Part shown: in pieces, positions 1-64,000 of the stretch | How positions within the stretch are numbered: position 1 is the first letter of the stretch | Layout: each line of letters starts with the position of its first letter | Assembly (NCBI RefSeq): GCF_028389875.1 | Contig: NC_084670.1 | Coordinates: forward strand, 36,601,155-36,665,154 | Origin: Rhea pennata | Lineage: Eukaryota > Chordata > Aves > Rheiformes > Rheidae | Direction: 5' to 3' | Length of the DNA stretch: 64,000 bases | Made by a program: the position numbers and the translations under genes | Notes under the pieces: model-generated | Databases searched by the model: none | What the model saw: the letters and a program-made list of their open reading frames with translations, nothing else | What the model was told of the DNA's origin: nothing

Positions 1-170
1 AGCCTATTAAAAATCTAGGCCTACTTGAAGGCCAAGTAGCTGACTTGCTGTAGCTTCTCTTGTACTCAAATCATTAGCCAGCCTATTCCGAAAAGGCACT
101 CATGTTCTTGGAGGTGAACCTGAATTTCTGTAGCCTTATATCTGCAATGTCTTTCCTCCTCCCGCCTAAG

Positions 171-306
171 GTCCGAGATTTATTTTCTGAGGCTTATGGA
201 GAAGTTTTCCATGTCCAGTTGCCGGACGAGGAAGAAGGCAGAAAGTTCTTTGAGGACTTGCTTTTAAATCAAGCTGCTCAACCTGCTGCCTCCAAAAGGA
301 AAGCAG
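171..306 (+). CDS. ATAD2: Copy A exon: end of second AAA module
   Basis: 136 bp after a pyrimidine-rich acceptor ending in CCTAAG and before donor GTGAGG. It encodes the segment with VQLPD and KFFED followed by a lysine-rich SKRKA end, in the order found in ATAD2. It leaves one base over for the next exon. Confidence 0.9.
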
Positions 307-3266
307 GTGAGGAGCGTTTACAAGGAGGGCTTTGCTTACTGTTATGGGAGCAGCCATTTGGCATTTGTCTGGGCAACAGATTGTCGAGCAATAACCTTTA
401 GAAGGCTTGCATGCTTTAGTGTGCTTTGAGTACTGCTGTCTAAAACACCTTCTGGCTGACTGCAGCTTGTCAGGAACACGGCGTACAGCCTGCAGCATCT
501 CCACCGGAGCCTCGACTGCCAGCAGAGGAGCAAATGAAACAGTTTGAGGAGCAAGCAGAGGAGACATTGCCAGCAGGGCCTCTACCTTCCCATACACCCT
601 TCCCAAGTGGCAAGTGGCATTTTTTTTTTTTGCCTTTCCTGCATAAGCTGCTAATGCCATTGCTACCCTCCCTGTTCTCACTGCAAACTCCCTCTTTCCC
701 ATGATGCTTTTGCTTCCTTTTCCTCTTCCTTTCCTTCCGACCTGCCTCCCCTGCGCCCAGACAGAGAGCAGTGTCTCGCCCTGTGATTTCCAGTTCAAAG
801 GATTAGACCTGCCAACTCAAGTGGCAAAAAGAGGGGAGCAAGAGTAACAGCTATCTGAAGACAAGACCATTGTTTCTTCCCTGCCCTCTGCTTTTCCCAT
901 GAGAAGGACAGCAGGGAACAAGGGGCTGGGCTTTCTCCCCGCTAAGGCCCAGGGTATGACATTGTGTGACAGCTCCTTATCCTGCTGGCAGGACTGGGAA
1001 TTCCGTCACTGGTTTCATCCATGAGTTTTGGGCAATGTTCAGTGAATGCCAACATTGGTGTCTTATCCTGGAAGGCATAAGCACAAGGTTGGTTGTAAAG
1101 CAAGTGAACTGAATCTGCAAGCATACGAGCAGTAAGTGCTTAAGGAGCATTTCCCCTTCTCCAGCAAGTATTCCCTTAAGACTGCCTCTTTAACTCTTCC
1201 CACCGTTGAAGAAGAGCTTGCGTGCAGTGGCTCTTCAGCTTCTCCTCTACATTAGTTCCTGCAGTAAGACAGTAAGCAACCTGTCCTGCTGAGATAAGCT
1301 TCCTTTGTGGTAAAGCGTTCTGCCTGAAGTCTGAGCTGTGCATAAAATCCTGCAGCTGACTATTCTGTGAATGACATTCTGTAATCCGTTCCTCTTCTTT
1401 TAAAATCAAAAGGCCAAATGACCCCCTTCCCTTGCTCCCCCTTCTTTCTCAAGGTGCCTATGTAGTGGGACAGCACAGGGCTACTTCAGTGCCCTTGGTC
1501 CCTCTCCTGGTACTCCACGTCAGGTGACGATGCTAGAATTGACTGCATCGGTAATGTTTTGGTTTGCGCTTTCTGATGTCCCTGTGCAGCTGTATCAAGC
1601 AGAAAACGCAGAAGCAACGCATCACCGTCAGTCAGCGTAGCAGAGAAGAGGAGGAGATTCCCATCCAGCGAGGAGAATGAGACTCACGTCTGTTTAAGGG
1701 TAGGTTGGAGCTGACCGCCCTGCCTTTGCTTCCTGATCTGCTTCAGACACTTGAGCTGTTCTGCCAGCACGGCTGTACACATGTAGGCAGCTCCTGGGTC
1801 AAGAGAAGGAGCTGGGGAGGCTCCTGTTTGCAGCTGTCCGCAGCATTTCCAGGAGACCTGTGGCCTCTCTCCCAAACAGTGCCTCGTACTGCAGCAGTAC
1901 GATCTAATCAAATGCAGTCGTGACTTTGCTGCGGCAGCCTCTACCCCTTACTGTGCACTGGGCCACAGCAGTTGCTGCTGTTCTGGAAGAAGTTGCTTTG
2001 CCGTTAGGATCGTTCATGGGATAGACTGGGAAGTAACACAATGCTAGGCTTGTAACACAGCCTAAGGCTTGCTTTTTCCCTCGGAGGTAGGACCAATTCA
2101 CCCATTTCTTTCCCCCCAAAATCCAGTGCAATCTGTAGTTTTGTTCTTGAAGTTTCACTCGTATTGTATTTTGCAGAAAAAGAAAGCAGGATGCGAGTTG
2201 TGTTAGACTGTCCTGGTTTAGTTACTGACGACACCCAGAGCCTGTTTGAAAGAGCTCATGCGCTCTTGCACTTGTCTTGTCTCCCTTCCTCCTTCAGCAA
2301 CTGCTGAGTGCTGCTGCTGGGATAATAAAGAAGTTCAGCATCTTTCACCGGGAAAAACTACATGTTATGCTCAGCCAGTGTATTTACCGGCATCGACAAG
2401 ACGATGACAAGACTCAGTTAATAGAGGTAGTATTTCTCACGGCACTTCCGATCGCTGTTACACCGCTCCTGCACGGGTACAGTGTGGGTATCGTGTCTTC
2501 ATCTCAATCTTTGTCTCTTTACCGCATAGTAGTCCGTGTAATATCGGAGTGGTTCATCTCTGCCTGGGAGAACTCGGTGCATGCTGCAAAGCCATTGTTG
2601 CGTTTGGCATGGCTGTTGGCAGTTTCAGCAGGGCTAAGACCGAGCCGGAAGACAAGGGATTGCACGCACACAGCCCTTTCAAAGCAGTTCACCCTGGAAG
2701 TTGTGAACAGCTTTTCTGTCGGGCCTCTCCTTGGGGAGGGGGCTGTGAAAGAAGGGCCCTGGTCTCCGTTTGTCACTACCCCTTCCTCCCCTTGCAGGCA
2801 GGCAAGCATGGTAAGGAGCTGGGAAGAGATTTTTCTTTAGTGCCGCCACCATAACTCTTCTAGACTAGCACGTGCGAGCGTCTTGAATTGCGCACAAAGG
2901 GAGATTTCTGCCTCGGCTGGTGCTAGATAGGCCAGAAATTCCGGCTTCACATTCAAGAGCCAGGAGGCAAAATTGGTTGTGCCTCTGCAGTTTGCCTTGA
3001 GAAGAGGAGGTCCCTTCTCCTAAGCCCTGCTCGTCTCCATCCCGTCTCGCACACCTGACAAAGAGGATGTCTCTCCTCAGCACACTTTTTGCAAGCACTG
3101 CTGATCCAGGCTCCCTCTCTTCCTCTGCTTGGGACACGTGGGGGTGCCTCTAAAGCCAGAGGGGCTAAAAAGACATTGTGATGGTTTCAGCACACCTAGT
3201 TGCCCTGTATTCTTTCCTTTTTAGGAAATGAAGAAGGAAATTGGAACGTTCCTTGGTGCCAACTAG
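171..3266 (+). CDS. ATAD2: ATAD2-like gene, copy A, 3' exons only
   Basis: Five 3' exons of an ATAD2-family gene: 171-306, 466-606 (end uncertain), 1590-1699, 2298-2426 and 3225-3266. ATAD2 is a nuclear AAA+ ATPase that acts on chromatin and normally carries a bromodomain (family knowledge). Here the frame runs from the end of the second AAA module (VQLPD, KFFED) through a PPEPR/EEQ acidic segment and a basic KRRR segment to a C-terminus with the family-typical SQCIYRHR motif. Exon phases fit together. The bromodomain expected between the second and third of these exons is absent. Upstream exons, if present, lie left of the window. The copy converges on copy B across spacer 1. Confidence 0.85.
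466..606 (+). CDS. ATAD2: Copy A exon: PPEPR / acidic linker
   Basis: The acceptor CTGACTGCAG gives a two-base start that fits the preceding exon. The product contains SPPEPRLP and an EEQ-rich stretch, matching the linker in front of the ATAD2 bromodomain. Similarity to the family stops after EET. The 3' end at 606 is a guess, chosen because the weak donor GTGGCA there restores the phase needed by the next exon. Confidence 0.6.
1590..1699 (+). CDS. ATAD2: Copy A exon: basic KRRR segment
   Basis: Acceptor CCTGTGCAG and donor GTAGGT enclose 110 bp that stay open in the phase leading exactly into the exon at 2298. The product is rich in Ser, Arg and Lys, ends with an acidic EENETH patch, and resembles the KKRRK region after the bromodomain of ATAD2. 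It could be a chance open frame, but the phase match supports it. Confidence 0.6.
2298..2426 (+). CDS. ATAD2: Copy A exon: conserved C-terminal SQCIYRHR segment
   Basis: 129 bp, 43 codons, acceptor CCTTCAG and donor GTAGTA. It encodes the most recognisable part of the ATAD2 C-terminus, with SQCIYRHR followed by DDDKT. Both ends are in phase 0. Copy A reads IIKKF where copy B reads ITKKF. Confidence 0.93.
3225..3266 (+). CDS. ATAD2: Copy A terminal coding exon
   Basis: After acceptor TTTTTAG the frame continues in phase 0 for 13 codons (EMKKEIGTF...) and stops at TAG 3264-3266. Length and sequence agree with the last residues of ATAD2. Confidence 0.88.
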   Translation, partial: EMKKEIGTFLGAN

Positions 3267-3369
3267 TGTGAGCTTCTGAAGACTGACTCCAGCTCCGTGA
3301 TGTTTTGTTTTAGTTGTATGCTGCCTGCTTCTCTGGGCCTGATTCAGTCACGAGAGCTTTGGCTCCATC

Positions 3370-3580
3370 TGAACATAAGGAAAGACTTGTTTATTGTGAG
3401 GGCATCAGCACACTGGAGCAGATTGCCCAGAGACGTTGCGTAGTCTCTACCCTTGAAGCTGTCTGGATGGGGTGCAGGGCAACGTGCCTGGTGTGACCCT
3501 GCTTGAGCAGGGGGGTTGGACTAGCTGATCTCCAGAGGTCCCTTCCAACCGCAACCATTCTGTGCTGCCGCGATTCTGTT
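3370..3580 (+). mobile_element. CR1 LINE 3' fragment (left arm)
   Basis: Contains the avian CR1 3' end: 'ggttggactagctgatctcc' and 'aggtcccttccaacc', followed by the attctgt tail. It lies about 100 bp after the copy A stop codon, so it may be part of the 3' untranslated region. Mirrored at about 15003-15208. Confidence 0.93.
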
Positions 3581-6500
3581 TATATATATAACATGTATAT
3601 ATGTATGTGTGTGTGTGTATGTCCAACTTTCACCAGTGTATCTCCTATTACTTACAAAGTCTAATTTATTAAAAGGGGTTGGTAACATTTATATTCGTAA
3701 AGGTGTGTCCTACCTTCAAAGTGATAAATGGGAACTCTAGAACATCACTGTGTATACGCAATACATTGTACAGTCAAAATAGTCCTCTTTTGACGGAAAT
3801 GTAGACAAATAACTTGTTGCTGGGAGACTAGCTCTGTGTGAATACTGAGTAATGTAAAATCAGCTAGTCTAAGGAAAATAAAAATAATCTGGAACAAGCC
3901 CAATACGTGAAATGTGTGATCCTAGAAGGTATTCTAAAGGACTGTACCTATTCTCAGACAAACTTCATTGCTTTAAAACTGGAATTTTATGTGCTAGAAT
4001 AAAAGAGCAGAAGAACCTCTGGAGAGCAGTAGTGGATTATGGTGGGGACTATGAGCCCCTGTTGTACCGGTGGAAAAGCAAGCACGTGCATTAGCACAGG
4101 ACCTTAGCAATGTTTTGCCTGAAATGCACTGTGCAATACTAATCATCTAGACTCCGGTTTGCAAAACTCCAGCACATGTGCTGAGAGTGACTCCTAGCAT
4201 AGTCTTGCTTTCACCAATCTATGATGCAGACAAACTTTGTCCTTTTAGTTTAGAAAGACAAGAGTTAAGATGGGATATGCCTGTTATCAATCAATATATC
4301 AGCGGCCGAAGAGAAGAGCTGAAATTTAAAATACGCAAAAGATCAGCAGATGCTTCAGTTTAAAATGTAACCTGCAGATGTAGTGATTGAAGTAGTGGGA
4401 AATAAGACTCAACACAGTTGCGGTTCTTACAAACATACACTGATTTTTCTAATGGTGTTGAGACACTGAAGTTCAGCTTCCACTGAAATGTTTTTGAAAT
4501 TTATATTAATAATTTAAAATAGAGAGAACTCTAAATACGGAACCATAAAACACAGATAAATAGAAGACCATTACACTAGCCATATTTGGAAGGTTATGTA
4601 GAGAGCACAAAACTCTAATCACAACAAAATCTAACTGTTTCAATGCTGTTTTGAAGCATATATTTCATATAACCTCAATGCTATCAAAAAGGCTGCTGCA
4701 AGACGGCACCACAGTATTTTGGGTGATGACATTACCGTGTCATAATAATGATTTTTTTTCTTCGTGTAAGTATAAAATAAAATAGCTGTGGATATAAGAA
4801 ATGACCTTATTTGAAGACAATGTGTACAAGAAAGAATCTTTAATGCATTTTACTTATGGATTTTCTGCATTTCTATACAATTAAATACTTCATTCTGGAC
4901 GAAGCTCTAGCCTGGGATGTGTTTCGTTCTGTCGTTTCTCTTTCTGTGGTGTGGACTACTTACAAAGGATTGTTTTCTTGGATACGTTCATCAGAATAAT
5001 TTTGATTTATATTTAAATCAAATAAGGTTGACTCCAAGTACCAATACATGAGGAACAAGAATTGTGTTTCAGTGAGGACAGTAAAATATGAGTTTGTTCC
5101 AATTTCAATCTATTTTAATAGGGGAGGAACCCAACTTTTGTTAAGAAACTAAACTTTTTATTTTAATCGTTACTGAATTGAGTTCGGCCAGGAACCCCAA
5201 AGCACCCTTACTTAGCCAGGCATCCCAGCCAGAGCTCCTGGGGTTTCAGTCAGCGCGCAACTGACGGATGAGACAGTAATCTGAAATTGAGACTTGTCAG
5301 TGGCTTTCCAGGGCTGCCAAGAAACTAGGTGGGCAAGCCAGCATGAAACGGGCAAACGTCCAGGGAAAACCTGCCTGACAAGTCAGGCTCTTGCATAGCC
5401 TGCCTGGGCTCTCCAGAATTTTTTTAACATCTGCCTCTGCAGTATTTTTCAGTTTTACAGGTCTACATTCTCCGAAGAAAAACTGTGAAGTCAGGGAGTC
5501 TTTGGAGCGTGCTTCATCCCTAGGAATATTAAATAATAGCAAATAACAAATAAACTCTCTGCGACATGGCTTCCTTGCTATTTAGAACAGCTTTGAGTCT
5601 AGGTCTGTAAGACACAAGATCTAGAAATAAGTTATAAAGCTCTTGTACTGTAAAAGGAATGATAAAGAGTACATAATGTTTACAAGCTTATTTTCCTTTT
5701 TAGCTGGTATTGGTTTTTTGTGATGGGGTAATTTCACGTTTATTTCCAAATACTGTAAGAAGTCTGTTGCTGAAAATGGGTTGTGCCACGGACCAGGCGT
5801 ATATTTCACTGGGAATGGGAAAATCACACTCCGCAAGATCAATGTTTTAGATAATTCCATCAGATTATAAATGGCCAACTCAAGAAACACACTGGGTATA
5901 GAAATATATATACATTTATATACATGTATACATCTAAACTGATTCTGTAGGATTAGTAATAAGACCAAGAACATAATTTAAGAATCTCGCCTCACTTGAG
6001 TCTAATAACAATTCTAAATTATATGCATCATAGGGTTCAGATGGGTGGTTTGGCTATGGATTCTCTCTGTTTTTTTTCTCACAGGAATGGCTATTCAGCG
6101 CCTCCTGCTGTGGACTAAACTCTCCAGTAAATTAGGTGCTTTATGTCTGTGGAATTTCTTATGCAGTATGAAGGAACCATTATGTGAAAATAAGCATTTT
6201 ACTTCTACGGTGGACTACAGCATAGGCTGAAAAATAGGCTTTTCTTCCCCTGCCCACTGAAATTAACCTGACCTGGTATTTAAATTGTTCCATTTCCATA
6301 AGCTTATTGGTAACAGAAGAGGGTTTTTTTTTTTTTTTTGCCTTCCTTTTCTTATATTTTGTTTAATAAAAAGTGTGGTTTGTTGAAGGCAAAATCGTTA
6401 AGAGAACTGGCGTGGAGAGATGAACACTTTGAATCTTTGGCTAACCGCAGCCAGCACGCAGCCCCATGAACGCTGAGGGGTTCGCAATGTCCGATAGGTG

Positions 6501-7474
6501 CTGGCTGACCGGTGTTCATACAGTTTTCATCCTAATGAGAAGATATCTCTATCATTAAGAAAAAATTGCTCCTTTCTCCTCCAATTCTGTTCTAGTATTT
6601 CTTTTTTACAATACATTCATGGCATAGTCCCTCTTTCACCAAGCACAGTAGGGAAGCTCTGCATAGGATCTGCAAAGCAGAATTAGGTTGATGGCTTTGG
6701 GGTTGTCTACAAGGAGGCACCTGTGCACAGGCTCAGCTAAAAAGGCACTTTATAGCTCCAAAGAGCGTTCGTTAGCATCAGGATTTGCTGTAGGAGTTTG
6801 GGGCCTTCTTATGGTCATTGCTGTAAGTGGGAAAAAGCTTCCTTCTCTCCTTGCACAAGGGAAGACTTCTTACCACTAACACAGCCTAAACTAATGTCCA
6901 TCATTGTCTCATTATCCCCACTGTCGCCTAGTTATGTTCCTGGGACATTTCATTTATTTTCTAAATTTGCACTGCACCTCCATTCCCTCTGCAGAGCCAG
7001 GAGGTGAGGCCCAGGTAAAGTTGGAGCTTTCAAGCCTCTCTGATGGACATCAGGTCAGAGAGGAGAGCATTTCTGAAGAGCTTCCTTCTCCTGGGCTGTA
7101 AACCTGGAGATGTTTCTCCATCTGTGGTCATTCAAAGCCATGCCTTGCAGGTTCTGCTCCAAAATCCCAGGACACAGTTCCAGAGGCCTCAGGGTCCACC
7201 CAGCTGAGGGGAATGAAAGCAAAGACTCTCTCTCACTGCCACCAGGCACCTGAAAAACCTATCAGAAGTCCTGCCTTGGATTCACTGAGAGTTTATCAAA
7301 CTGGAAATACGGAGTGAAATGTTTATGACCCAGCAAACTGGAATTTTCCCAATTAAATTTTTGCTTGGAAATTTTCTAGTTGCTTCTAGGCAAGATTCAC
7401 TTTAGCATTAGACAATATGGACAGTATGGGGGAGGATAATTAGACAAAAGTTAGGGATCATCAAATAGCCTGCT
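3581..7474. other. AT-rich intergenic DNA of the left arm
   Basis: No exon, RNA gene or full mobile element recognised. It starts with a TA/TG microsatellite (about 3582-3620), is strongly AT-rich to about 5200, and contains only short shadow frames that are copied in 11108-15000. A possible poly(A) signal AATAAA lies at 3877-3882. Confidence 0.6.
3877..3882 (+). promoter_or_regulatory. Possible poly(A) signal of copy A
   Basis: AATAAA about 610 bp after the copy A stop codon. The mirror hexamer for copy B is at 14697-14702. In this AT-rich sequence the match may be chance. Confidence 0.25.
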
Positions 7475-8589
7475 ATTTCAAATAGTGAAATAAAGAATTG
7501 CACGAGGAAAGGGTGAAAATAAATAACAAAAACGAGCAATTTTTAAAAACATATAACAAATTAAAAATAAAAAGTAGTAACATATACAAATACCAAACAT
7601 TATAGAAGTCTGAGGTCCTAGACTCTCCACAAAGATACGATCAGCTGGGAAATGAAAAGTATTAACTGGAGAGAGAGAAAAACTCCTACCTGCATCCAAC
7701 ATCATGCCCCTCAGAAATCCACTTATACCAGGTAGAATTGCAAAATGTCACGATTTAAGTAGGATCACAACACCTAGCAATGCCATGATACTATTTGGGG
7801 ATCCACACTGTGAAAGAGTTACAGGATTATCCGCAATATTTTTACTGTGTACAGAGCCCAATTCAAATATGGATCAATACATCTGCAGAAAGTAAGACAA
7901 AACACTTTCCATACACAATAGGAGACAGGTTCTTGCAGGATGTATTAAAAAAAAATTACCAAAAAAACACTGTTACTATGAAGAAGGGTGCATAAAATCC
8001 CACTTCCATGAGCTAGGAAGCCTGATGTTTCATTCCTTTTTGATTCAGATCATCTATTCCAGTAAGTCAAAATTCCATCAGAATTCCAGGAAGTTTTTCT
8101 GCATCAGATACACCTTCCAAACATCCGGTTTCACATCCAAAATGCAGATTTGCCTACCTGACTGAACGAATATGGGCTTCTGGGTCAATCTTTCAATGGA
8201 ATGAATAACTGTGGCTCCATTTAAAACAACAGAATTCTACTACTACGTGACAAAGAAAATCTTCTTTGAAGCACTTCAGAAGTTCAAGTCTCCTCCAAGA
8301 AGGTATGAGAAATGGAGGAAACAGTCCCTTTTCCTTCCCTCTTCTGCCCCCCCCCCCATCCCACAGCACTTCAGTCAGCATAATTCACCTAGAAAGGAAA
8401 AACAGAACTAAAAGAAAGAAACAAACCAACCAACCCTCTGTAAAACTTCCTGACTTTTTAAGGCATTTACTGATTTCCCAGCCTAAAAAAACAAACAAAA
8501 AAATCCACCCTAACACACCTTCCTCTTCATTGTACTGCCTTCCTGACGGCTGCGTGCCATGCACTTGAGCTTCCAGTAGCTAAGGGATG

Positions 8590-9240
8590 GACACACAACC
8601 GAGAGCACCGCTGAGACCAAGTTTGACCCTCCGGCGGTCCCGTCCCGTCCCGACCCCCAACACCGTCCGGGCCCCTGCCGCCACCGGCTCCGGCTCAGTT
8701 CCGACACCCGCCCCCTCCCCGTGGTCCTGCCTCGGGCTTCCCCTGGGATCCCTGCTCCCCCTCCCAGACACCGCCCCCCTCTGGCCCGGGGCGCCCCCCT
8801 CCTCCCCCCGCAGCCCCCTTTCCCGCCGCCCTCCGCGACCCGGCGCACCGCCAGCCCCGGCCCCAGCGCGCCCCGCTGGCGCCGCCTTGCCCAGGACGTT
8901 GCCATGGGCGCGGGCGGGCGCGGGACGCGCAGCGCGCACCCCCCGGCCCCGCTCACCTCCTCCGCGCTGCAGCCGCCCTGCCGCTGCCCGCGGGCGGCGC
9001 TCGGCCGCAGCTCCCTCGGCCCGGACCGGCCCCGGCGCCACCTCGCCCCGAAGGCTCCGCTCCTGGCCTCTGCCCACGCCGCCCCCGCCCCCGCCGTCAC
9101 GGCCCGGGCCAGCAGCCGCCGCCCGTCGGCAAGCGGGCAGGAGTGGCGGCCCTCAGCGCCCGCGGGGCCAGCGGCGGCTGCCGGGGCCCCAGAGGCTGCC
9201 GCGCTCCTGAGAGCAGCGTCCTGAAGGCTCAAGGGAGAGC
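8590..9240. promoter_or_regulatory. CpG island in spacer 1
   Basis: Very GC-rich and CpG-dense sequence in the middle of AT-rich surroundings, typical of a vertebrate promoter island. Long open frames here are a by-product of high GC. It sits between the 3' ends of two converging gene copies, so it is not an obvious promoter for either. It may belong to a non-coding transcript or to a first exon not recognised. Confidence 0.7.
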
Positions 9241-9644
9241 CCTGGAGCGCACCGGGGGCAAAGGGAGCGTTCAGGGGGCAACGGAACAAACGGAGAGCGG
9301 CGGGTGCGACAAGCAAACCAAACAAACAAGAAAAAGCAATGGCAGAGCAAACAGAACGATTCTGGGAGCCCCAAAAGGCAAAAGGAGGCCCTGGGGCACA
9401 CCCAGAAAGCTCTGCGGCAGATGAGAAAGCTGAACAGAGAACTTTGTCGCATGCTGCAGAGCAAACACAAGGCCCTGAAGCACACAGCGGCCGTGGGGGC
9501 AACCCAAAATGTGACCTGAAGGCTCCTGAGGGCATCTGAGGGCAAACGCAGGGCTGTGGGGCAAACGAAAGCACAAACGAAGGGCCTCGGGGCACACCAA
9601 AGGGGCCATAAGGCACATCACAGCGCTCAGCGCGGCTGACTTAG

Positions 9645-10020
9645 CCTGGAGAAGGGACTCAGCCCGGAGAAGACTGAGGGGGATCTTATCAATGTCTATC
9701 AGTAGCTGAAGGGAGGGTGTCCAGGGGATGGGGCCAAACTCTTTTCAGTTGTCCCATGCGAAAGGACAAGAGGCGATGGGCACAAACTGAACCACAGGAA
9801 GTTCCTCTTGAATACGAGGAGGAATTTCTTTCCCGGGAGAGTGATGGAGCACTGGACCAGGTTGCCCAGAGAGGTTGTGGAGTCTTCCTCTCTGGAGATA
9901 ATCGAAGCCTGCCTGGATGCAACCCTGTTTAACGTGCTGTAGGTGACCCAGCTTGAGCAGAGGGGTTGGGCTAGATGATCTCCAGAGGTCCCTTCCAACC
10001 TTACCTATTCTGTGATCGTA
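9645..10020 (+). mobile_element. CR1 LINE 3' end (spacer 1)
   Basis: About 380 bp of CR1 including the pieces 'ggttgcccagagaggttgtg', 'ggttgggctagatgatctcc' and 'aggtcccttccaacc'. This is the best-preserved CR1 in the window. Confidence 0.96.
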
Positions 10021-10602
10021 AGAAAAAATAACTAGCTTTTCTGATTTCTCACCTCTAGGTGTCACTCCAAGTTGCAGTAATATTGCAACTCTCTTAAAAG
10101 CTCTGTGTGAAATGCTTAGCAGTTTCCTTAATGCCTTCCAATTCTCTGTTTAAAAATTCATTAGTAGCTTAGGAAGCTTATGGTCTTTTCAAAATAGGCT
10201 TATAATGAAAAATGTTAAACTTAACAATGTTTTCCCTTCTGGCCTGGCTCTTCACTAAGCTCTCAGGCATCCAGTGCCCATAAGAAGGCAGAAGGTCACT
10301 GTAGCCTTTAGTCTCTGATTATTTCCATGCCGATCATTTCTGTATTCTACCCTTACTGTAGGAAATATAAAGAGAAAAAGTACAAATAAACATGCGTATT
10401 TTTAAGGCATCGGGCACTTCCAGATGAGCTCTAAGTGGTTAAAAAAATACATGTAACATTTTAAGGGAATTATGTCCGTTGTCTCAGAAAGAAACAAAGG
10501 TATGGGGAGGCTATGTGTTTATTAAATGCTTACTACACCTGTATACAGACCTTTTCTCTACGCTTACCTCCAAATGTGAAGCTAAACTGAAATTTAAACT
10601 TA

Positions 10603-10634
<32 letters not shown>

Positions 10635-14995: not shown

Positions 14996-15002
14996 ATAAA
15001 CA

Positions 15003-42730: not shown

Positions 42731-42732
42731 AG

Positions 42733-46865: not shown

Positions 46866-46866
<1 letters not shown>

Positions 46867-46902: not shown

Positions 46903-46904
<2 letters not shown>

Positions 46905-49590: not shown

Positions 49591-49599
49591 GGATCCGAT

Positions 49600-52942: not shown

Positions 52943-53107
52943 CGGCACCCTGAATGGGATACAGCTTCTGAGTCTCGACAGATCCGTCGGCTCGCAGCAT
53001 CTCCAGCTGGCACCGAAGGATTTTCGGGGAGAACCTCTGATCCTGAGACCCAAGAGCTCCGAGCAAGGTCCCAAGCTGAAAGGTAAAGGCATTCCTCTCT
53101 CTCTTTT

Positions 53108-53147
<40 letters not shown>

Positions 53148-54109
53148 AAATAAAGGGCGGGGAGGGATGGGGTGAATCCTGAGGCAGGTTGTCTGTCCAT
53201 AAGACGTGGTGAAAGCCTTGCAGGATTGGGCTCTGAAGGTACCTAAAGGAAGGGTGGGTAAGGTAACTCTGTCAGGCCTAAGCCTGCAGATTGATTTAAA
53301 GGTATCTGGTATTGGGCGGCCGCACTGTCTTCTCGTCTTCTCTTCTTTCTGTTCCTTCTTTCCTCTGTTGCTCCGCGTGTTGCGCTGTTGCTGCGGTTAG
53401 TACGGTTGTTCCAGTTGCTAGTTCCGGTTGTTATGTTTATTACGGGGTGGGAAATGTTCTGCGCCTGAAAGAGGAAATTTAAGGGCTTCCGAATTAGGGC
53501 GCATTATGAGGCGTAGGTGTCAAATGGAGGGTGGACCTCCTATCAGAGAAACAGCTCGTAGCAACTTACATTATTTTGCTGCAGGGAAGGGTAGTGGGAT
53601 GAAGTGCGCACAAGGGTATGAAGTGCGCATAAAGGGATAAAGTCGCAGGCAGCGGCTCGGCAAGGGTTGCCTTAATTGACCAGAGGGGTCAGAGCCGAGT
53701 GCGCACAAAGGTGCAGGTATAAAGGTGGAGGCTGGAGTTTCTAGGTAGCTGGCCTGGGGTCAAGCCAATCCACCATTCCTCCCCGTAGCCCTTTGGGGGG
53801 TGCATTTTGAAACACTGGGATATCTTTGTAGAAGCTACTGTGATTAATATGTGTAAGTTGGAATGGCTAAGTTGGAATGTGATGAGCAATGGCCAGAAAA
53901 TGTGACCTTGAACTGTAATACTGGTCTACAGAAGGTATATAAAAGCAATAATTCTGGTCATCCGAAGAAGGATGACAAAGCCCCAGAGCCCAGAAAACAC
54001 CAACCTGAATATGTTAGAGGAGTCAAATATGGAACGGAGGGGAGCGGGGGAGAAAACCAGAATTTGCGCAGCTGATCCCCTGGTTCCATTAAAGCTGGGG
54101 AATGAAACT

Positions 54110-56500
54110 GTAGATTTTTTTATTAGATAGTGGAGCCGCTCATTCAGTGATAACGAGTTGTAAAGGACCCTTAAGTAAGACGACTACTACTACCACGGTT
54201 GGGGCTATGGGGAGGAAAACCTGGAGGCCATTTTTGCAAGCAGTGGAATGTACAATTGGAGGTACTAAACGGACTCATGAGTTTCTCTAGCTGCCAGTGT
54301 TCCCTGCCTTTATTAGGACGGGATTTACTATGCAAATTCATGTGCAGATAAGCTTTTCCAAGAGTTCCGTGCAGCTCCACAGCCCTCCAGAACTGGCATG
54401 GGGAGTGCAAATCTGCCTTTTGATGGAGTCGGCTCTGTGGAATAACGGTGCAAGTATCCCTTCAAGTGTATTGGTTGCAGTGATTCCCCTGCTCTGGGCT
54501 TCGACAAAGCCGGGGAAAGGGAAGAACGCGACCCTAGTCAAAATAGAGCTACAGCTGGGAGCAAAGCCAGTTTAGGGTGCATCAGGACCCTGCCAAGCTA
54601 GGAGCACATAGAGGATTGGAACCCCTAATTAATACTTTCTTGCAAAATGGCTTGCTTAGAGAGTGTTGATCTGAATTCAACACACCAATCCTGCCAGAAA
54701 GAAAATCGCGTTTGCAAGAATATCAGCTGGTCCAGGGCCTAAGGGCAGTGAACCAGGTAACAAAAGATATACACGCAACCATGCCAAACCCATATATTCT
54801 TTTAGCCTTGGTGCCTGAGACTAACACTTGTTTTACGGTGCTAGATTTAAAAGATGCTTTTTTCCTGTATTCCCGTAGAAGAGCAAAGCCAGACAATTTT
54901 TGCCTTTGAATGGGAATGTCCCACTACGAGGAGGAAGGAGCAGTTATGCTGGACGGTGGTTCTTCAAGGATTCAAGAATAGTCCTACCCTGTCTGGTGAG
55001 ATCTTGGCCCAGTGGCGGGAAGGTAGTCAAATGCCACTCTTTTACGGTCTGTGGATGGCATCTTGATTGGAGCTGACTCAGAGCAACTATGGCTAGAAGC
55101 GACAGTGAGTCTGTTAAATTTTTGTGGGGGAGGGACTTGCCGGGTGTTGTGCTTCAAAGAAGAAGGCTCAGATTGCGAAGAAGGAAGCAATGTAAAGTAT
55201 GGACAAGAGCTGTTAAGATTGTTACAGGCAATAATGGAACCCAAAGAAGTAGCGATAATGCATTGCAAAGCCCACCAGCAAGGAAGTAGGGAAGTGGCAC
55301 AAGGTAAAAGGAGAGCAGATACAGTAGCCGGGAAGAGCAGTGTTAGCGGGACAAGTGATTGGAGCTCTAATACCCAGTGGAAAGATACAACTGAGACTGA
55401 GACCTGCTGAATATTCAGACAATGAAAATGAATTGTCAGGAAGGCTGAAATGTACAAAAAATGCTGAAGGGTAGTGGCTCACTCCAAATGGACAAGTTTT
55501 AACTACTGGCAAAATGATGGAAGTGCTCCTTAAGAGACTGCACGAGGAAACTCAGGTGGGAGCAGATGCTATGATAAGCAGTGCAAAAAGATACGCTGTG
55601 GAGTCAAAGATGCAATCTAATGCTGACCTTATTGTAAAAAGATGCCGCAGCTGTTGTGCAGGTAACCCCCAAATTTAGAAGAAGCCACCAATGGGAGAAG
55701 TAAGAAGAGGATTAACCCCAGGGGAACAGTGGCAGATAGATTTCTCTGAATTGCCTAAATGTGGTCATACTGATTTGTTTTGGTAGATACCTTTTCTGGC
55801 TGGGAAGCTTTCCCATGCTCCACCAGTGGCGCAAAAGAAGTGATTGGGATTTTACTACAAGAAATAATTCCTCGATTTGGGATGCCTGAAGGTATAAAAT
55901 GAGGTCCATTGTCTGAGGACATCTGGGATGTAGTTCAGGGAACATGAGAGTTTTTACGCACTCAGACCATAGAACGGCAGCGCAGCTTAGTAAAATTTGT
56001 CAAGAAACATCTCTAAAGTGGCCAGTAGCTTTTCCAATAGCGCTTTTGAGGATTCAGATACAGCCCAGGACAAGAACTAGGATCATCCCTTACGAGGTGC
56101 TGTACGGAAAACCGTACCAGGTCCCCTTAATACCTGGGGAACCCCATATAGTGGGTGAGGCAGACTTACGCTTATATTTGATCTCCCTAGAAAAGGCTGT
56201 GGTAGCCCGCCCTTAGAGGAGATACGTCATTCTCGCTGGACCACTCGCTTTGGACACTCGGGTCCACCTGTATCAGTCAGGTGATTGGCTTTACCTGAAA
56301 TCCTGGAACTCAGAAACCCTCCAGGAAAAGTGGAAAGGCCTGCGACAGGTACTTTTGACAACATATGCCTCCCTCAGATTAGAGGGAGTGGAGCCCTGGG
56401 TCCACTGTACGCAAGTAAAATTGTCTCCACGCCCTGTTCAGTGGCCCACAGTTGCAACTAAGGACCTGCTCAAACTAAAACTCCAGAGGGTGAACCTCTG
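54110..56500 (+). pseudogene. ERV 2 pro-pol remnant (right arm)
   Basis: Segments mirror 43513-45903: protease-like near 54115-54420, RT-like 54680-55010, RNase H-like 55150-55330, integrase core-like 55700-56220, integrase C-terminal-like 56250-56500. Non-functional. Confidence 0.85.
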
Positions 56501-56555
56501 AAGGACTGAGCATCAGGATGCAGGGATTATTTTGATGATGATGTTTGTGATATTA

Positions 56556-56890
56556 ATCCTGGTCATCCTGGTATGACACCTATCTGCCTCTAGAGACCCC
56601 TGTGACTCCGAAAAACAGCCCCTCGTGGACTCAATGCACACACGTAATGATATGTAAGTATAAAAGCGAATTCTTGGAAAAGTAATGAATACCCAAATTA
56701 ATTCCAGGAATTGTAATGAATATGTATGAGGGGTATCGGCTAAAAGCTCAACAAATCGTGGTCTCAGGGGGCGTATTAGGTGGAAGGATCCGCTATGCCC
56801 CCGGCACCTATTAAAGGAATGCCTGCTTTTTCATGCTACCTTGGTGTTATGGAGTTTTATTTTCCATTCTTTTGGGTAACCTTTTCTGGC
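56556..56890 (+). repeat. ERV 2 second LTR (right arm)
   Basis: Mirror of 43123-43457, beginning near 'tggtcatcctggtatgacac'. Confidence 0.85.
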
Positions 56891-57177
56891 ACCCCAGATG
56901 GGACATTGCTTCTGAGTCTCGATGGATCCATGGGATCGCTGCATCTCCAGCTGGCACTGAGGGATTGTCAGGGAGAACCTCTGATCCCCGGACCCGAGAC
57001 CTCCGAGCAAGGTCCCCTGCTGAAAGGTAAAGGCATTCCTCTTAAAAGAAAGAAAAGGGAAAAAAAGAAGGGAGATCCTGAGGCAGGATACCTGTCCGTA
57101 GGATGTGGCAGTGAAAGCCTTGCAGGATTGGCCTCTAAAGGTAGCTAAAGCAAGGGAGGGTAAGGTAACTCTGACAA

Positions 57178-57280
57178 GCGTGGAAGGATCCACTACGTCC
57201 CTAGCGCCTGTTAAAGGAATGCCTGCTCCTTAATGCTACACTGGTGTTAAGGAGTTTTGTTTTCCACTTTTTCAGAACAC
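57178..57280 (+). repeat. ERV 2 third LTR fragment (right arm)
   Basis: Follows a second leader-like stretch (56891-57177), which itself resembles the leader after the first LTR. Mirror of 42733-42835. Confidence 0.75.
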
Positions 57281-57283
57281 CTA

Positions 57284-59460
57284 TGGCAGGGCAGATTGAC
57301 CTGAGAACGTGGAGGTGGTACGCTGTGAAGGGCTTATGCCCAGTGTTGTCCCTGCTTGGGCCTTCTGAGTCCCCGGGGTTTTTCTCTGCTTGTGTGTCAC
57401 CCACCAGTCCTTGTGTTGCGGTAAGGTTCTCTGCTAACAGCCCTGCTGACAGCTAGCAGACCTGAGATGGGGCTCCTGGAGAAGTGACTTTGGGTAAGCC
57501 TGTGCTCCAGGATGAATGCGAGGCAGCTATTTTGCTTGGCTGTGTTGCATGTATTAACACTGAGAGATTATGCTTGTGTGCCCCCTGGGCTTAAGTCTTC
57601 TGCTTGGGTGGGAGGCGTGTGGCAGCTTTTGGTGAGTCTCTCACCTGATGTCTCCTTCTGGCTTCTAGGTTTTTAAATGAGCAAGACCTGGGCAAAGCCA
57701 CAAAAGGAGCTGTTGCCAAACCAATCTGAAGAGCTTGCCCGGCAATAGAAGGGAGAAGGCAGCTCTGAGGAGCTGAGCGATGTGAGAGGTGATGTAACAG
57801 CAGACCCTGCTGTTGAGACTCTGGAGGCAAGGAAGCGGTAGGACAGGAAATCTCGGTGAGTGGGGAGAAGGTGGTGCCCTAGAAAGGGAGAGCTGCACAC
57901 TTGAGGGAGTCGGAAGGGGCCACGAGGAGGCTGGACTTAGTCCGTAGTAGCCCATGTGTGAGGATGCTGAGCTGTCCCTCTTGTGAGCCCTGTCCCCGAG
58001 ATGCAGTTGTGAAGAGCTGCATTTCAGGCCAGCGCCTGCTCTCCCGAGCACACCAATGCTGTGGAGGTGCTGGGAGAAATGCTGCAGCAGTGAGGATCTG
58101 CAGAGGGTGCGGTAAGGTGAGGCGGCAGGAGAAACAGATTGCGGAACCTCCTGCTCCTCGCGGGCTTGGCTCCTGAGCACACTCCTGCAAACTGCCTGGG
58201 TGGTGCATTTGCAGAGGGCTGCCACCAAGTGCGGGGCACTATGCGCAGAAAGGAGGAAAATGTGTGCAGAAGGAATCACCTGAAGCCAGAGTCCCTGCAG
58301 GGGACAGGCAGATGAGAGAACTGGTTCGTGTGACAGATTTACGTAGTGCTGGTCCCTCAGTTGAGTGTCAAAAAGCACAGCTGTACGGCCGTGGAGGCTT
58401 CAAGGACAGCTTCCAGTGTGTTCGTTGCCTTTGATGGAGTCTTGCAAATGACTCCATGCTTTTCCGCATGTCTTTCCTGCTTGCCAGCCCATGACCTTGC
58501 AGGGAGAAGTTGTCAATAAAGCCAAAGGACAGAAGAGGGGCTGTGCTGTGCTGTGCTGTGCTGTGCTGTGGGGAGGGCCTAGACTAATGGTCGCCCTGTG
58601 AGTTGGGTAGACTTTGCTGGCAGTGCCTGTACAGAGGTCAGGGTCAGGCTCTTTGAGTCCAGTGGCTGGAGGCAGTTGTAGTGGGGAGCTCACAGCGGTG
58701 GTGTTCCTTGATGTGCTGTACCTCTAGTAGCATGAATTAGTTCTATTAGCTTGAGCAGTAGCATTGTTTTGATGCATAACTAAGACACGGTTTTGTAAGT
58801 CAGTTTTGTTGCCTGAAGGATTAGGATTGACTCCCAAGCATGCTGGTGTAAAGAAGAAGAAAGAAAACAGCCTGTTGCCTGCCGTGGCCGAGGAATGGAG
58901 CTGTTAATGTAGGCTTGATTGGGAAAAGCAGGCGCTGGAGTTGAATGTCGTGTGACTGACTGTCCAGTCAGCGGATGCCTCCTGGGCTGTTGCGTGGGGT
59001 TTCCTCTGATCTCCGGTCCATCTGAAATGCCTCCTCTCTGTTTGTCTTGCGCTGTAGTTGCCACTTGAGGAGGAAGAGTGTCAGAGAAAAATGGTGGCTT
59101 TTGTCCAGACGGCACAAGAGCAACTGGCAAAAACTGCGGTTTCTCTCTGCCTTGCCCACACAGAGAAGGAGAAGAAAGTGACCCAGAGGCTGGAGATGCC
59201 ACAACAAGTGTAAGTTTATGCCAGCTCCTGCCAAGGCCCAGGGGAGTGCAGCAGCATGGATTGCTGTGCTGCAGGGTTGCGGATCCTGGGTCTCGGGTGG
59301 ATGCGGCACCCTCTGCTCGTTGCAGGATTATGTAGTTGCCACCTTTTACCATAGGAATTGTGCTGTTCCCACCTGAGATTGTTGCAGGAATTACACAGTC
59401 ACCACCTGCTACCGTAGGCATTACGCAGTATCATTGGATACCTGCGGGACTGTTGAGTAG
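57284..59460. other. Right-arm DNA after ERV 2, no gene recognised
   Basis: Mirror of 40560-42730 with the (CTGTG)n microsatellite at 58540-58570. It lacks 23 bp near 59105 relative to the left arm. Confidence 0.55.
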
Positions 59461-59620
59461 TGTATCAGTAGTAACGTTGCAGGGTTTTGTGTTCCATTTC
59501 TTGAAAGTCATGTTATCAGCATTCAGGTGGGTCAGCTGATGGGCTTGTGGGCATGCTGGGGAGACAAGGCCTGTGTTGCATGTTGTTTGGGGAGCAATTC
59601 AACCTCCTGTGGCACACAGC
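59460..59620 (-). pseudogene. ERV 1 RNase H-like tail left in the right arm
   Basis: Reverse complement of 40367-40530. It is the only part of ERV 1 retained in the right arm and ends abruptly at the deletion junction. Confidence 0.8.
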
Positions 59621-59621
59621 T

Positions 59622-60240
59622 AGGTCGGTAGCGGGAGGGCGCTGGTGGCAGCGGCTGGGGCCGGGGCCAGGGCCGGGGCCGGCGGCAGCGGCTGGGGCCG
59701 GGACCAGGGCCGGGGATGGGACCGGGGCCGGGCCTTGGGCTGGGGCCGGGGCCGGGGCTGGGGCCGGGTCCTGGTCAGAGATTGGAGTGCAGACGAGATT
59801 TCAGTTGGGGTCCAGGCGGGGATACAGGACTGTGACCAGGTCGGGGATGGGGCTGTGGTCGGGGTTTGGATCAAGGGCCAGGTTGGGGGCCGAGTGAGGG
59901 TATGGAACCGGGTCTGGATCGGGCACGAGGCAGGGGACCTGGTCCAGGTCGTGGAACGGTCCAAGGTAAGGGTCCAGGCTGGGGACTGGTGTAGAGTCTG
60001 GGTCCAGGTTGGGAGCTGAGTAAGGGACTGGTCTGGAAACCAGGTCTGGGTCGGGGACCGGTCTGGGGTCCTGGTCTGGGTTGGGGGCCAGGTCGAGGAC
60101 TGGTCCAGAGTCCAAATCCAGGTCAGAGATTGGGAGTGTATCCAGATTCGTGCCCAGATTACGGACTGGGTCGGGGACTGGGTAGGGGTCGGGGGCCGGG
60201 ACAGGGTCTGTGTCAGGGTGGGGGTCCAGGCAGTAGGGCA
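59622..60240. repeat. GC-rich degenerate minisatellite (right arm)
   Basis: Mirror of 32420-33049. The ggggccggggcc part has rearranged units and a different length, the most variable piece of the arm. Confidence 0.85.
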
Positions 60241-60994
60241 AGGCCCCACAGGGTTGCAGTCCTGGGGAATGGGGAAAGGGCGTGGGGACACCCCAAAATC
60301 CCCCTGTCAGCTCTGGGCAGCTGGACTGCTCCCAGGGACCCAGGCGTCCAGGAGGGGGCAGCTGCCCAGTGAGCAGCCCTAGTTTGCTGGGAGCAAGGGA
60401 GGAGAAGGGGGAAAAGAGGGGTCACAGAGGAAGAGTTAAGACAGAAGGGACACAGGAGGATGGAGTGTACTGAAGATAGACAAGAGATGGAGTGACAGCA
60501 GGGACATGGGAGGATGTAGGGGACAGGAGATACAAAGGATATGGTGGGAGAGAAGGCGCATGGAAGGATAGAGGGGATGGGAGAGAAGGGGTATATGTAG
60601 GGACAGAAAGGACACAGGAGAACCAGTAGAGAGGAGATACCAAGGCTATGGAGGGACTGAAGGGACCTGCACGGAGATAGGGTACAGGACACTGGCACAG
60701 GTACAACTCCCCTCTCTGCAGGCACCTCTGGCCTCTCCCCAGATTTCCCAGCGAGCCTGAGTTGAGCCCAGGTCTTGGGGGCTGCTCTCGCCACCGCTCT
60801 GCTCTGGAGGGGCTGCTGTGCCCTGAGCAGGAGAAGGCGAGGGGAGGTCGTGAGACAGAGCAAGAGGTGGTTTGGTGACGTTCCGAGGCTAAGTGTCCAT
60901 TTGACTCCATCATTTTGTACTAGAATGTCATGCTGATTATATGTATTGTTTCAAACACTTTCTCTTGCCTGCTTCCCTTTGCTGTTCTGTGTGC

Positions 60995-61078
60995 ATGGAG
61001 AAGATGATGGACTCGACATGCTTCCAGGCTTCTCCCATTGCAGAAGGAGTACAGCTGCACTTATCTTACCCTTTCTGT
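60995..61078 (+). CDS. Candidate first coding exon of copy C
   Basis: ATG plus 27 codons and donor GTAAGT, mirror of 31569-31652, in phase with the exon at 61760. See the copy B entry for its weak similarity to ATAD2. Confidence 0.35.
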
Positions 61079-61759
61079 GTAAGTAACGTATTTCACTCAG
61101 CAAAATGATGCCGTGGCAGTTTTAACTTAGCTGAAATAACTTCTTCCAAAGCCTACTGCTGTCTAAAAGAACTTGCATTATTGCTCTCTAATGATAACTT
61201 TCCTGTTGGCTACTTCAGGTGTGTCTGTTCCTGGGCCAGCATTGCCCGTGAGCTTAGCCCGTGGTCCTCTGCCACTACAGTAACTTCTGTTAGGATTAGA
61301 GCCAGCAACCGTGTTTCCTCTCCCTCAGCTTTGATTTGCTAAACGGAATTCTTCTGGTCTCCCGTTGCCCGCTAGGCATTTCATTTTTTGAGAAACAAAA
61401 ACATTTGAGAAACATCTCAACATTTCCTGGGCCATGAATAATACTGAACACGGAGAGGCAAGGGAGCCCCGAACTAAATACACATTTACAGTTCTTCTGT
61501 TGAAAGACTTTCCGTTTCTCATCCCACTTTCTGGTATGTTTTTGCCTGCAAAAGGGCAAGCTGACACAGTCCGCACCTCCTGTGAAACTAAGGAACACTC
61601 GGTGGTTGTACTCCACCGATCCTTCCTTGCTATTTGTGAAGTAGAAGAACTGTATCTGACTCTACTGTTTTGTGTATATGCCTCATTTGGATGAAGTTAC
61701 TAGGTAGGCACCAAGCTGCAGCATAATTGGGACTGATTGTTCTTGTTCCTTTTGATCAG

Positions 61760-61829
61760 GAAAATCTGGATACGTACTGCCAAGGAAAGCAACAGGAAGA
61801 AACTCAAGAACCCGAGGCAGAAATTGTCG
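61760..61829 (+). CDS. ATAD2: Copy C N-terminal exon
   Basis: Mirror of 30818-30887, acceptor TTTGATCAG and donor GTTAGT, encoding the [11 protein letters not shown] segment. Confidence 0.78.
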
Positions 61830-64000
61830 GTTAGTTCTGGCTTTCCGTTTTCTTCCCCGTGTTGCAGCCCAGAGCCTCACCTAAAAGGGAAACGAGCTGA
61901 ACTACTGCCTCTTGTTCTGCTCTTCATAATTCCCTATTGCCGCAGAGCTTGCAAGCCATAGGCATGGCCTCCACATGGGCCTCCCTGCCCTTGTGAACTC
62001 TGTGCAGATGGTCAGCAAAGAGAACGGGTCCTTTCCCCAAATGCTTACGAGCTAAGGCAGGGCAGAAGTCAGCAGCTGGCTCTAGACAGGCGGGGAACGC
62101 AAAGAAAGGGAGAGTCTGACTCCGAGTGGTAAGCAGGGACGATGTCAGCACTAGCCTGTTCATCAGGGTTCATGGCTTTTGAGCAGCATCACGGGAATTT
62201 TCAGGAAGCAAGGTAGACCACTGGATGTGTAGGAAAAGCTCCTGCCGAGTACAGAGATCGGCCGAATGTAGCGCTTCTGCGTTTGTGTGTTGCGCAGGTA
62301 GCTGATGGAAGCTGTTGTGAGGGCCCGTTTGGAATCGGGGGCTGTCGTATGCAGTGGGAAATGGGATGAGGAACGAGGATAAGTCATGAAGGGCCTTAGT
62401 AACTTTGCATTGGATGAGCCAGAGGACACTTGAAAGTTTTCAGGAGAAGGCAGTTGCTTGTAGAAAGCTGCTGAAAAGCGTGCGTTGACTGGGAGGTGAG
62501 AGTATGAGGCAATTCTTTCATGGGCAAAGTGAAAACTCTGGGATTCTAAGGGCAAGGCATTCCTCCATCTCTGATGAAAGAGGAGAGTGCTAGAGGGTGA
62601 GGGAGGGGGGCTGGTAGAAACCCCAGACTCCTTTCCCTGTTTTCCTTGTGCTCTGCCTGTGTGCCCCATGCAATTTTTATCTCTGTCATTCAGAAAGCAG
62701 AACTACTGTTTTGGTTCAGACAAGGAAAAGGCAATGCTAGCCAAGGAATAGAATGAAATTACTCGGAGTGGGTAAGCTGGCCATTGAAGAGGCCACGTCC
62801 ATTCCTTACCTGGCATCCAGCTATTAATGTGAGAGGGTATTAGTAAGAGCTTGCTAGGTAGGGATGCTCCATGTTTGGCATTCCGACCATCTTTCACAGA
62901 AGAATTTCCAGTTCCTAAACAGAAGCTCCTGGCATAAACTTTCTCTGTAGGCATCAGACTCCTTTTTTCTCGTTGGGGAACTTCCCTGTTATTGCCCGTG
63001 GCAGAGCTATGGCAGAGGCAAGATCTGAAACCACAGAAGCAGATGAAGTCTTGCTGCTGTCAGGACATTCCAAAAATGTCCCGGAAGCACTACCTCGCAA
63101 TACTGAGAGGGAACTTTCTGAAATAGCTCTTCTCATGGTAGCTGCCTCGTTGCTAAGCAAGGTGACAGCAGAATGTGGCCCCTTGTTACACTCATGGAGG
63201 CTGGTGGCAAGTCACCCAGCAATTCCACCAAGGCCAGACCTTTGCCCATGACCTATACGCACGCTCCTCTCTGCTGATTCCGAGTTTCTGGAATGTGTCA
63301 TGCACAAATGGCTCCGGAGCTTTGGCAGCGTTTCACATCTTGCGTGTCACATGCATGCTGATAACAATTAAAAAACACCCATCACTATCTGTGTGGTACC
63401 TTTTGGGAGTAATACAACTTGCAGCAGTGTTTGAAGAGTTCAGTGTTGGTGACGTTGTAAAGGTTCTGCTCTAACCAGCTCATCAGAAGAAGGTGAAGAG
63501 CAAGAAGATGAAGAAGGCAAAGATACGTGCAGGGGCTATAGGCTTAGAGAAAGGAAGGATCTTGTATGCTCTCAGTAGGTTATATGTGCAGTTTCTCTGC
63601 AGGGTTGATTTCTTGTGTATAGGGGGGACAGAAGTTCTTGAAGGAAACTGTACAGACACCAGGAATGATATCTTAGATATTGTAATTACAGGGTCTCCAG
63701 AAGAAGATGAAAACCGAAAGGCGGCAGATGGCAAAGACCCTCCAAAGCAGTATAGCCTTCGACCAAGGCAAACTGCCATATGCTGTCGAGAGCCACTGGA
63801 ATGTAGGTTATGGGCACAGTTTCTCTGCAGGGCTGATTTCTTGTGTATAGGGGGACAGAAGTTCTTGAAGGAAACTGTATAGGCACCAGGAATGATATCT
63901 TAGATACTGTAATTACAGGGTCAACAGAAGAAGATGAAAACCAAAAGGAGGCAGTTAGCAAAGACCCTCCGAAGCAGTATAGCCTTCGACCAAGGCAAAC
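61760..64000 (+). CDS. ATAD2: ATAD2-like gene, copy C, 5' exons (runs off the window)
   Basis: Exons seen: 61760-61829, repeat exon 63692-63802 and repeat exon 63919-64000 (cut by the window). Splice sites and phases equal those of copy B. ATPase exons, number of repeat exons and intactness cannot be judged. It diverges from copy B across spacer 2. Confidence 0.8.
61840..63470. other. Copy C intron
   Basis: Mirror of about 29190-30810. It holds an open frame at 62973-63251 that is also open in the left arm (29381-29674) up to an 11-bp indel. No family resemblance was established. Confidence 0.5.
63487..63574 (+). pseudogene. Diverged repeat-like exon relic (copy C)
   Basis: Mirror of 29089-29176 with one Asp-to-Gly change ([11 protein letters not shown]). 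It has the same shortened 3' end and phase problem. Confidence 0.6.
63692..63802 (+). CDS. ATAD2: Copy C repeat exon, first unit
   Basis: 111 bp with acceptor TAATTACAG and donor GTAGGT. Encodes [25 protein letters not shown] and REPLE. Confidence 0.83.
63919..64000 (+). CDS. ATAD2: Copy C repeat exon, second unit (cut by window)
   Basis: First 82 bp of the next repeat unit, 227 bp after the previous one. Encodes TEEDENQKEAV and SLRPRQT. The window ends inside it. Confidence 0.82.

Follow-up and report, generated by a model that had tools for sequence, protein, structure and literature searches.

A probable multi-copy inverted array of a bromodomain-less ATAD2-like paralogue in Rhea pennata

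We analysed 64,000 nucleotides of Rhea pennata DNA (contig NC_084670.1, positions 36,601,155 to 36,665,154; hereafter the window), which we read as part of a multi-copy array of a paralogue of the chromatin ATPase gene ATAD2, its copies alternating in orientation. One copy (B) is near complete and intact, two (A and C) are partial, the bromodomain is absent and an upstream exon has been multiplied. This reading, together with the history and role proposed for it below, is in our judgement probable. Three gene copies had been predicted for the window; this stands for B, while A is present with its last five exons only and C with repeated exons only.

Two adjoining palindromes

Self-blastn of the window found two long inverted-repeat pairs, all other listed repeats being 757 bases or shorter. 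The pairs form two adjoining palindromes, which occupy most of the window:

1..7474, plus strand: palindrome 1, left arm; 99.3% against 11108-18589, inverted (self-blastn); runs to the window edge
7475..11107, no strand: spacer 1, tail-to-tail, ~3.6 kb; contains CpG island 8501-9400
11108..18589, minus strand: palindrome 1, right arm (self-blastn)
28663..47211, minus strand: palindrome 2, left arm (self-blastn and realignment)
33050..40366, no strand: 7.3 kb segment of the B arm without counterpart in the C arm; an endogenous-retrovirus polymerase remnant (40090-40455) is cut at its right end
47212..52799, no strand: spacer 2, head-to-head, ~5.6 kb; contains CpG island 49601-51400
52800..64000, plus strand: palindrome 2, right arm (self-blastn and realignment); runs to the window edge

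The arms of palindrome 1 are 99.3% identical across 7,487 columns. Palindrome 2 was matched as two blocks because 33050-40366 is present on its left side only: an inner block (40367-47211 vs 52800-59623, 99.1%) and an outer block (28663-33049 vs 59623-64000, 97.2%). Kilobase-scale inverted repeats at 97-99% identity are not chance. ATAD2 exons converge over spacer 1 (A plus, B minus) and the repeated upstream exons diverge over spacer 2 (B minus, C plus). The two-palindrome layout is confirmed, and with it the predicted alternation of tail-to-tail and head-to-head copies; the palindromes adjoin, and are not nested as had been proposed. As predicted, the outer arms of both reach the window ends. 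Any arm partner of 18590-28662 would fall outside the window, beyond the self-comparison.

Besides the two CpG islands in the spacers, others lie at 32801-33600 and 59601-59900. The island between the two gene heads (49601-51400) is, by its position, a candidate shared promoter. GC-rich minisatellite-like tandem repeats occupy 33268-33804, just within the segment absent from the C arm. An Rfam scan of the window gave nothing at gathering scores.

The arms had been described as having very few differences. Realignment bears this out for palindrome 1 (36 substitutions in 7,486 columns, with 4 gaps) and for most of the inner block of palindrome 2 (37 in 6,847 columns), and contradicts it for the outer block (82 in 4,404 columns) and for the C arm, which lacks 33050-40366. 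The blastn counts for the same three blocks were 33, 34 and 79 mismatches, with more gaps. Within the inner block, 24 of the 37 substitutions fall in 47069-47192, the inner rim where the arm fades. The outer block has 27 of its 82 in 28663-29350, 16 in 32901-33049, a GC-rich repeat, and the other 39 between these stretches, in 29351-32900. A fall in arm identity towards the 7.3 kb difference was considered and dropped after this recount, which shows the substitutions crowded at both ends of the outer block.

That the palindromes are an assembly artefact, an inverted false duplication made by hairpin reads or haplotype joining, was a worry of the original prediction. Palindromes are prone to misassembly, and the annotated rhea copies described below may share the same assembly. 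The differences between the arms weaken this worry. Transitions outnumber transversions in palindrome 1 (28:8) and in the inner (26:11) and outer (60:22) blocks of palindrome 2, with 18/36, 11/37 and 30/82 substitutions, respectively, in CpG context. The spacers are without an inverted partner, 7.3 kb are specific to one arm, and the annotated copies carry differing residues. The transition-rich differences, the unpaired spacers and the one-sided segment indicate genuine DNA of some age and not a folded read, and we consider an assembly artefact of either kind highly improbable.

The one-sided segment ends inside a retroviral remnant. The B-arm frame 40090-40455 (plus strand) matches retroviral reverse transcriptase/RNase H over residues 1-113 (to ~40428; E 1.8e-21), the Pfam match extending to residue 93. 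We take the virus to be of murine-leukaemia type, going by the matched chains and an MLVIN_C match elsewhere. Because the polymerase homology crosses the 40366/40367 boundary, loss of 33050-40366 from the C arm seems likelier than its gain by the B arm. Endogenous retrovirus pieces lie on the plus strand over 36244-40455, the portion up to 40366 being in the B arm only; a matrix-like match at 36244-36567 is weak and under the cut-off. A second retrovirus remnant in palindrome 2 lies at 54670-56498, with its counterpart at ~43.5-45.3 kb. There, the scan of the C arm gave an integrase C-terminal match of the murine-leukaemia type (56217-56498, E 5.3e-15) and a reverse-transcriptase match under the cut-off (54851-55063).

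Gene copies and coding constraint

Exons were located with three kinds of probes: the human ATAD2 protein (a working sequence), bird proteins, and an annotated Rhea pennata protein (P0001). The human probe detected ordered minus-strand exons from 25.4 to 16.2 kb, which form copy B, and the 3' exons again on the plus strand at 0.16-2.4 kb, which belong to copy A. The coding features are:

15312..25737, minus strand: copy B, 15 exons, 704-residue open frame and stop, without internal stop or frameshift
25737-25626, 25398-25283, 24589-24415, 23736-23648, 23275-23116, minus strand: copy B, exons 1-5 of those found
22312-22222, 21778-21464, 20743-20617, 20251-20068, 19288-19103, minus strand: copy B, exons 6-10 of those found
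18419-18284, 18124-17981, 16998-16889, 16290-16162, 15353-15312, minus strand: copy B, exons 11-15 of those found
28180..28971, minus strand: copy B, a 111-base exon present four times in tandem, unit ~228 bases (28971-28861, 28744-28634, 28518-28408, 28290-28180)
29089..29184, minus strand: copy B, more diverged upstream copy of the 111-base exon
171..306, plus strand: copy A, exon at the end of the second AAA region; equals B 18419-18284; AG before, GT after
466..609, plus strand: copy A, exon ending at the start of the ATAD2 bromodomain region; 1 difference from B over 466-608
1590..1699, plus strand: copy A, basic C-terminal exon; 1586-1699 equals B 17002-16889; start by analogy with B
2298..2426, plus strand: copy A, C-terminal exon; 3 differences from B over 2292-2426; start by analogy with B
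3225..3266, plus strand: copy A, last exon with stop
63479..64000, plus strand: copy C, nothing but repeats of the upstream exon: a diverged one (63479-63574), 63692-63802, and 63919-64000, truncated at the window edge

The 704-residue frame of B is intact. All 15 exons have an AG acceptor, and the 14 introns have 13 GT donors and one GC donor. The core of 598 residues, stop-free after AG/GT splicing, has 69% identity to the working human ATAD2 sequence, and B matches P0001 at 99.3% over 700 residues. For the N-terminal ~240 residues of ATAD2, human, cuckoo-roller and bee-eater probes gave a credible match to nothing but the repeated exon; its neighbours left weak traces. Copies A and B differ by 4 substitutions over 570 mostly coding bases, too few for a ratio of nonsynonymous to synonymous rates. 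Copy C had been entertained as a full gene, which was dropped because the window shows nothing of it beyond repeated exons; as a gene copy it rests on little coding sequence.

The 111-base exon gave strong matches to P0001, and weak but repeated matches to the acidic/basic, LRQRK-type exon of human and bird ATAD2. A faint further copy follows the four tandem units of B, and C has one 111-base exon and part of another after its own diverged copy. As 111 is a multiple of three, exon copies can be added with the frame unbroken. Most units (28180-28971, 63692-64000) are open in two frames.

The first AAA region of B keeps GPPGTGKT and FFDEID, so that Walker A and B are intact. Pfam, run on nine stop-free open reading frames and the spliced core, recognized AAA and AAA_lid_3 in B. 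Both AAA regions align with the human ATAD2 chain 8h3h_A over 577 residues (E 4.8e-275). Among solved chains 8h3h ranked first and 6jpq, presumably Abo1, second; YTA7 (7uqi) came seventh, behind VCP-like ATPases. Past the second AAA region, ATAD2 homology ends at EETL (18021), the bromodomain is skipped, and a short basic exon, a SQCIYRHR block and the last exon follow. Human, bee-eater and turtle probes gave no credible bromodomain match anywhere in the window, the 3' regions of A and B included. B shares its paired AAA regions, its Walker motifs and the C-terminal block SQCIYRHR with vertebrate ATAD2, yeast Yta7 and Abo1. Unlike ATAD2, it has no bromodomain after the second AAA region and no recognizable N-terminal ~240 residues, and it has a repeated upstream exon and several near-identical copies.

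A recent pseudogene cluster, in which the gene died lately and the copies are decaying, would account for the missing bromodomain and N-terminal exons, for a stop in the annotated frame of one repeated B exon, and for the P0006 model from the same rhea family, which is odd and shortened. B, however, is open over 704 codons with all splice sites intact. Six annotated clusters have open frames (annotation favours such frames), and an ostrich record and a second rhea gene are also without a bromodomain, so that this loss looks old and the rest kept. We simulated neutral change from the B core with substitutions only, without insertions or deletions, which is lenient to the neutral view. Of 300 runs per level, 27 were stop-free at 7% residue divergence, 6 at 11%, 1 at 16%, 3 at 20%, and none at 25% or 29%. 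The branches leading to the rhea copies sum to ~0.29 changes per site (second tree, below). The intact frame of B and the simulation therefore support coding constraint on the paralogue for most of its history, which is not proof that all of today's copies are functional. We hold a recent pseudogene cluster to be decidedly unlikely.

A probable separate ATAD2 paralogue

Relatives were sought in protein databases; the matches listed are the best 120 of 7,993, 7,986 and 7,495, and scoring was confined to candidates with most words in common. The B core is 97-99% identical to annotated Rhea pennata proteins named "ATPase family AAA domain-containing protein 2-like". These make up at least six clusters with 12 member sequences among the matches listed, all on one contig of 38,578,059 bases. 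Further copies beyond the window had been expected, and clusters up to 99% identical to B and mutually different are in line with this. B has 4, 5 and 7 differences in 594 residues from the representatives P0001, P0002 and P0003, and the six representatives differ mutually in substitutions as well as in model shape. Isoforms do not explain substitutions, and several loci, not one gene, are therefore represented. Unlike any of the six, the B core has M389 and V411, and B would therefore be a further copy, or come from another assembly or a sister species such as Rhea americana.

Two more distant relatives were found: P0007, from a 70.16 Mb Rhea pennata contig (75% identical to the B core), and the ostrich (Struthio camelus) protein P0035 (70%). 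Neither shows a bromodomain, which is less certain for P0035, as its record stops soon after that place. The C-terminal residues of P0007 resemble the repeated upstream exon, as if the model ran into the next copy; tandem copies may exist there. In a bromodomain test of the first 120 database proteins, 85 matched and 35 did not, many of the latter being partial records. We claim absence only for P0001-P0007, crane P0015 and ptarmigan P0068, all of which have the C-terminal block.

Two trees were built. The first comprised 37 of the first 120 database proteins, the window and the working human sequence. The second comprised 30 of 237 proteins and the window, without the working human sequence, and with rhea P0002, P0005 and P0006 left out as near copies or short models. 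In the second tree B and three rhea copies from the 38.58 Mb contig form one tight group. The 70 Mb rhea gene and the ostrich protein group together (100%), and join the rhea copies in one clade (100%). Emu and cassowary ATAD2 sit on short branches among other birds, outside this rhea-ostrich clade. B therefore does not come out as an orthologue of the single-copy bird ATAD2: it falls in a separate clade, whose sister position has 72% support in a tree without canonical rhea ATAD2.

Ordinary, bromodomain-bearing ATAD2 was found in emu, chicken and crane on ~150-170 Mb contigs, and in emu, cassowary and kiwi, among the matches listed. The same matches had no entry of its own for canonical rhea ATAD2, and two further searches (best 120 each) listed no further ratite member of the bromodomain-less clade. 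These groupings suggest at least two ATAD2-like lineages before the ostrich-rhea split, one of which multiplied in rhea. They support, at sequence level, a distinct, fast-evolving bromodomain-less paralogue, at least as old as that split and amplified in the rhea line. The original prediction had spoken of ATAD2, normally single-copy; the relationship and the bird origin hold, and the gene itself is distinct from the ordinary ATAD2 listed for emu, chicken and crane. ATAD2B as a parent was provisionally set aside on its sequence, not on a tree.

The original prediction knew of no description of palindromic ATAD2 amplification. Our literature search, which did not reach most subscription papers or any bioRxiv preprints, found no published description of these genes or of the array among the papers listed, and no paper linking ATAD2 to the bird W chromosome, to the germline-restricted chromosome or to copy number in zebra finch. 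Among the papers listed, ATAD2 appeared in one on mouse (PMC12818868) and, along with ampliconic genes, in a single cancer-testis review. The genes themselves had already been named ATAD2-like by annotation.

Origin, possible role and other birds

We propose that inverted duplication produced the head-to-head and tail-to-tail copies, that gene conversion between arms keeps the arms alike, and that 7.3 kb subsequently disappeared from one arm of palindrome 2. The protein would still form an ATP-driven ring of the ATAD2 type, working on chromatin or histone chaperones without an acetyl-lysine reader; by analogy, it may evict chaperones without acetyl-lysine targeting. Multiple copies would raise the dose, most plausibly in the germline. 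The published paper drawn on for function mentions a short testis isoform.

Several points weigh against this reading. The NCBI rhea models do not read the repeated exon in its ATAD2-matching frame, and one B unit has a stop in the annotated frame. Differences between units favour neither frame clearly: 8/24 are synonymous in the ATAD2 frame (23% expected) and 4/24 in the annotated frame (18% expected). Neither the true start codon of B nor its first exons could be located. Gene conversion is read from arm identity alone, and the substitutions crowding at both ends of the outer block of palindrome 2 form no simple gradient. The cluster member counts may include isoforms. In the tree, long branches could mislead as to the sister position of the rhea-ostrich clade to other bird ATAD2, and canonical ATAD2 of rhea and ostrich is not among the proteins compared there. 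Bromodomain-less models are also found elsewhere in the tree, in crane (P0015) and in the ptarmigan Lagopus muta (P0068, an isoform). The bromodomain was therefore lost, or skipped by models, more than once, and its absence is not the mark of one old gene alone; some of these absences may be model choices. Role, sex linkage and dosage of the array are putative.

The original prediction had likened the layout to ampliconic germline genes of sex chromosomes, with dosage or germline selection as a conjecture. Most known palindromic ampliconic genes are those of mammalian sex chromosomes, with a few bird genes besides. Like such families on the mammalian X and Y and other sex chromosomes, the array has long inverted arms of ~99% identity with genes in them, short spacers, and multiple copies (one copy and two parts in the window, at least six clusters). 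Palindrome 1 (99.3%) and the inner block of palindrome 2 (99.1%) lie above a 99% mark. Unlike those families, palindrome 2 is asymmetric and its outer part lies below that mark (97.2%); sex linkage and germline expression of the array are predictions. An amplicon on the W, or on a non-recombining Z, kept by arm-to-arm gene conversion under germline selection or conflict, is possible, if short of an even prospect. Long-armed palindromes with a germline-type chromatin gene fit the pattern of such amplicons, and the arms contain retrovirus remains. Against it, the 38.6 and 70.2 Mb contigs could be autosomes, and inverted pairs also arise by autosomal segmental duplication.

Such a duplication without copy-number selection, in which the gene merely rides along in an unstable inverted region, would make ordinary turnover of the 7.3 kb loss in one arm and of the 97% identity of the outer arm. 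It also fits that, of the three copies, only B can be called intact from the window. The frame, on the other hand, is intact despite large divergence, and several ATAD2-like clusters also occur in a frogmouth (one contig) and a loon (three contigs). We regard this explanation as rather unlikely.

The data from other birds allow a broader, tentative suggestion. Birds may have repeatedly made multi-copy families of ATAD2 duplicates (rhea, frogmouth, loon, perhaps crane), of which the ratite duplicate would have shed the acetyl-lysine reader, retained just the ATP-driven ring and spread as palindromes in rheas, maybe as a germline remodeller under dosage selection or sex-chromosome conflict. If true, birds would have their own equivalent of the arms race among ampliconic X and Y genes. 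Bromodomain loss and inverted amplification of a conserved chromatin ATPase would provide an independent test of why germline genes turn ampliconic, and a natural experiment on the function of the ATAD2 ring once the reader is gone. With comparable clusters in unrelated birds, this could be tested across species.

Among the matches listed, the frogmouth Podargus strigoides had at least seven ATAD2-like clusters with 20 member sequences on one 97.5 Mb contig, their representatives being 86-97% alike (P0051, P0067, P0072, P0073, P0076, P0093 and P0095). The loon Gavia stellata had at least four clusters over three contigs (P0031, P0039, P0041 and P0044), three of them 99% alike. In a crane (Balearica), one such protein, on a 417 kb contig, counted eight member sequences; the crane's canonical ATAD2 is distinct from it and lies on a 168.6 Mb contig. 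All three birds resemble the rhea in having several ATAD2-like records per species. Unlike the rhea copies, theirs lie outside the rhea-ostrich clade and are known from protein records, not from their layout, and those of frogmouth and loon keep the bromodomain. In the two trees loon pairs with crane (86% and 93%), frogmouth stands apart with weak deep nodes, and none groups with the rhea copies, a hint that birds amplified ATAD2 duplicates repeatedly, apparently in separate events.

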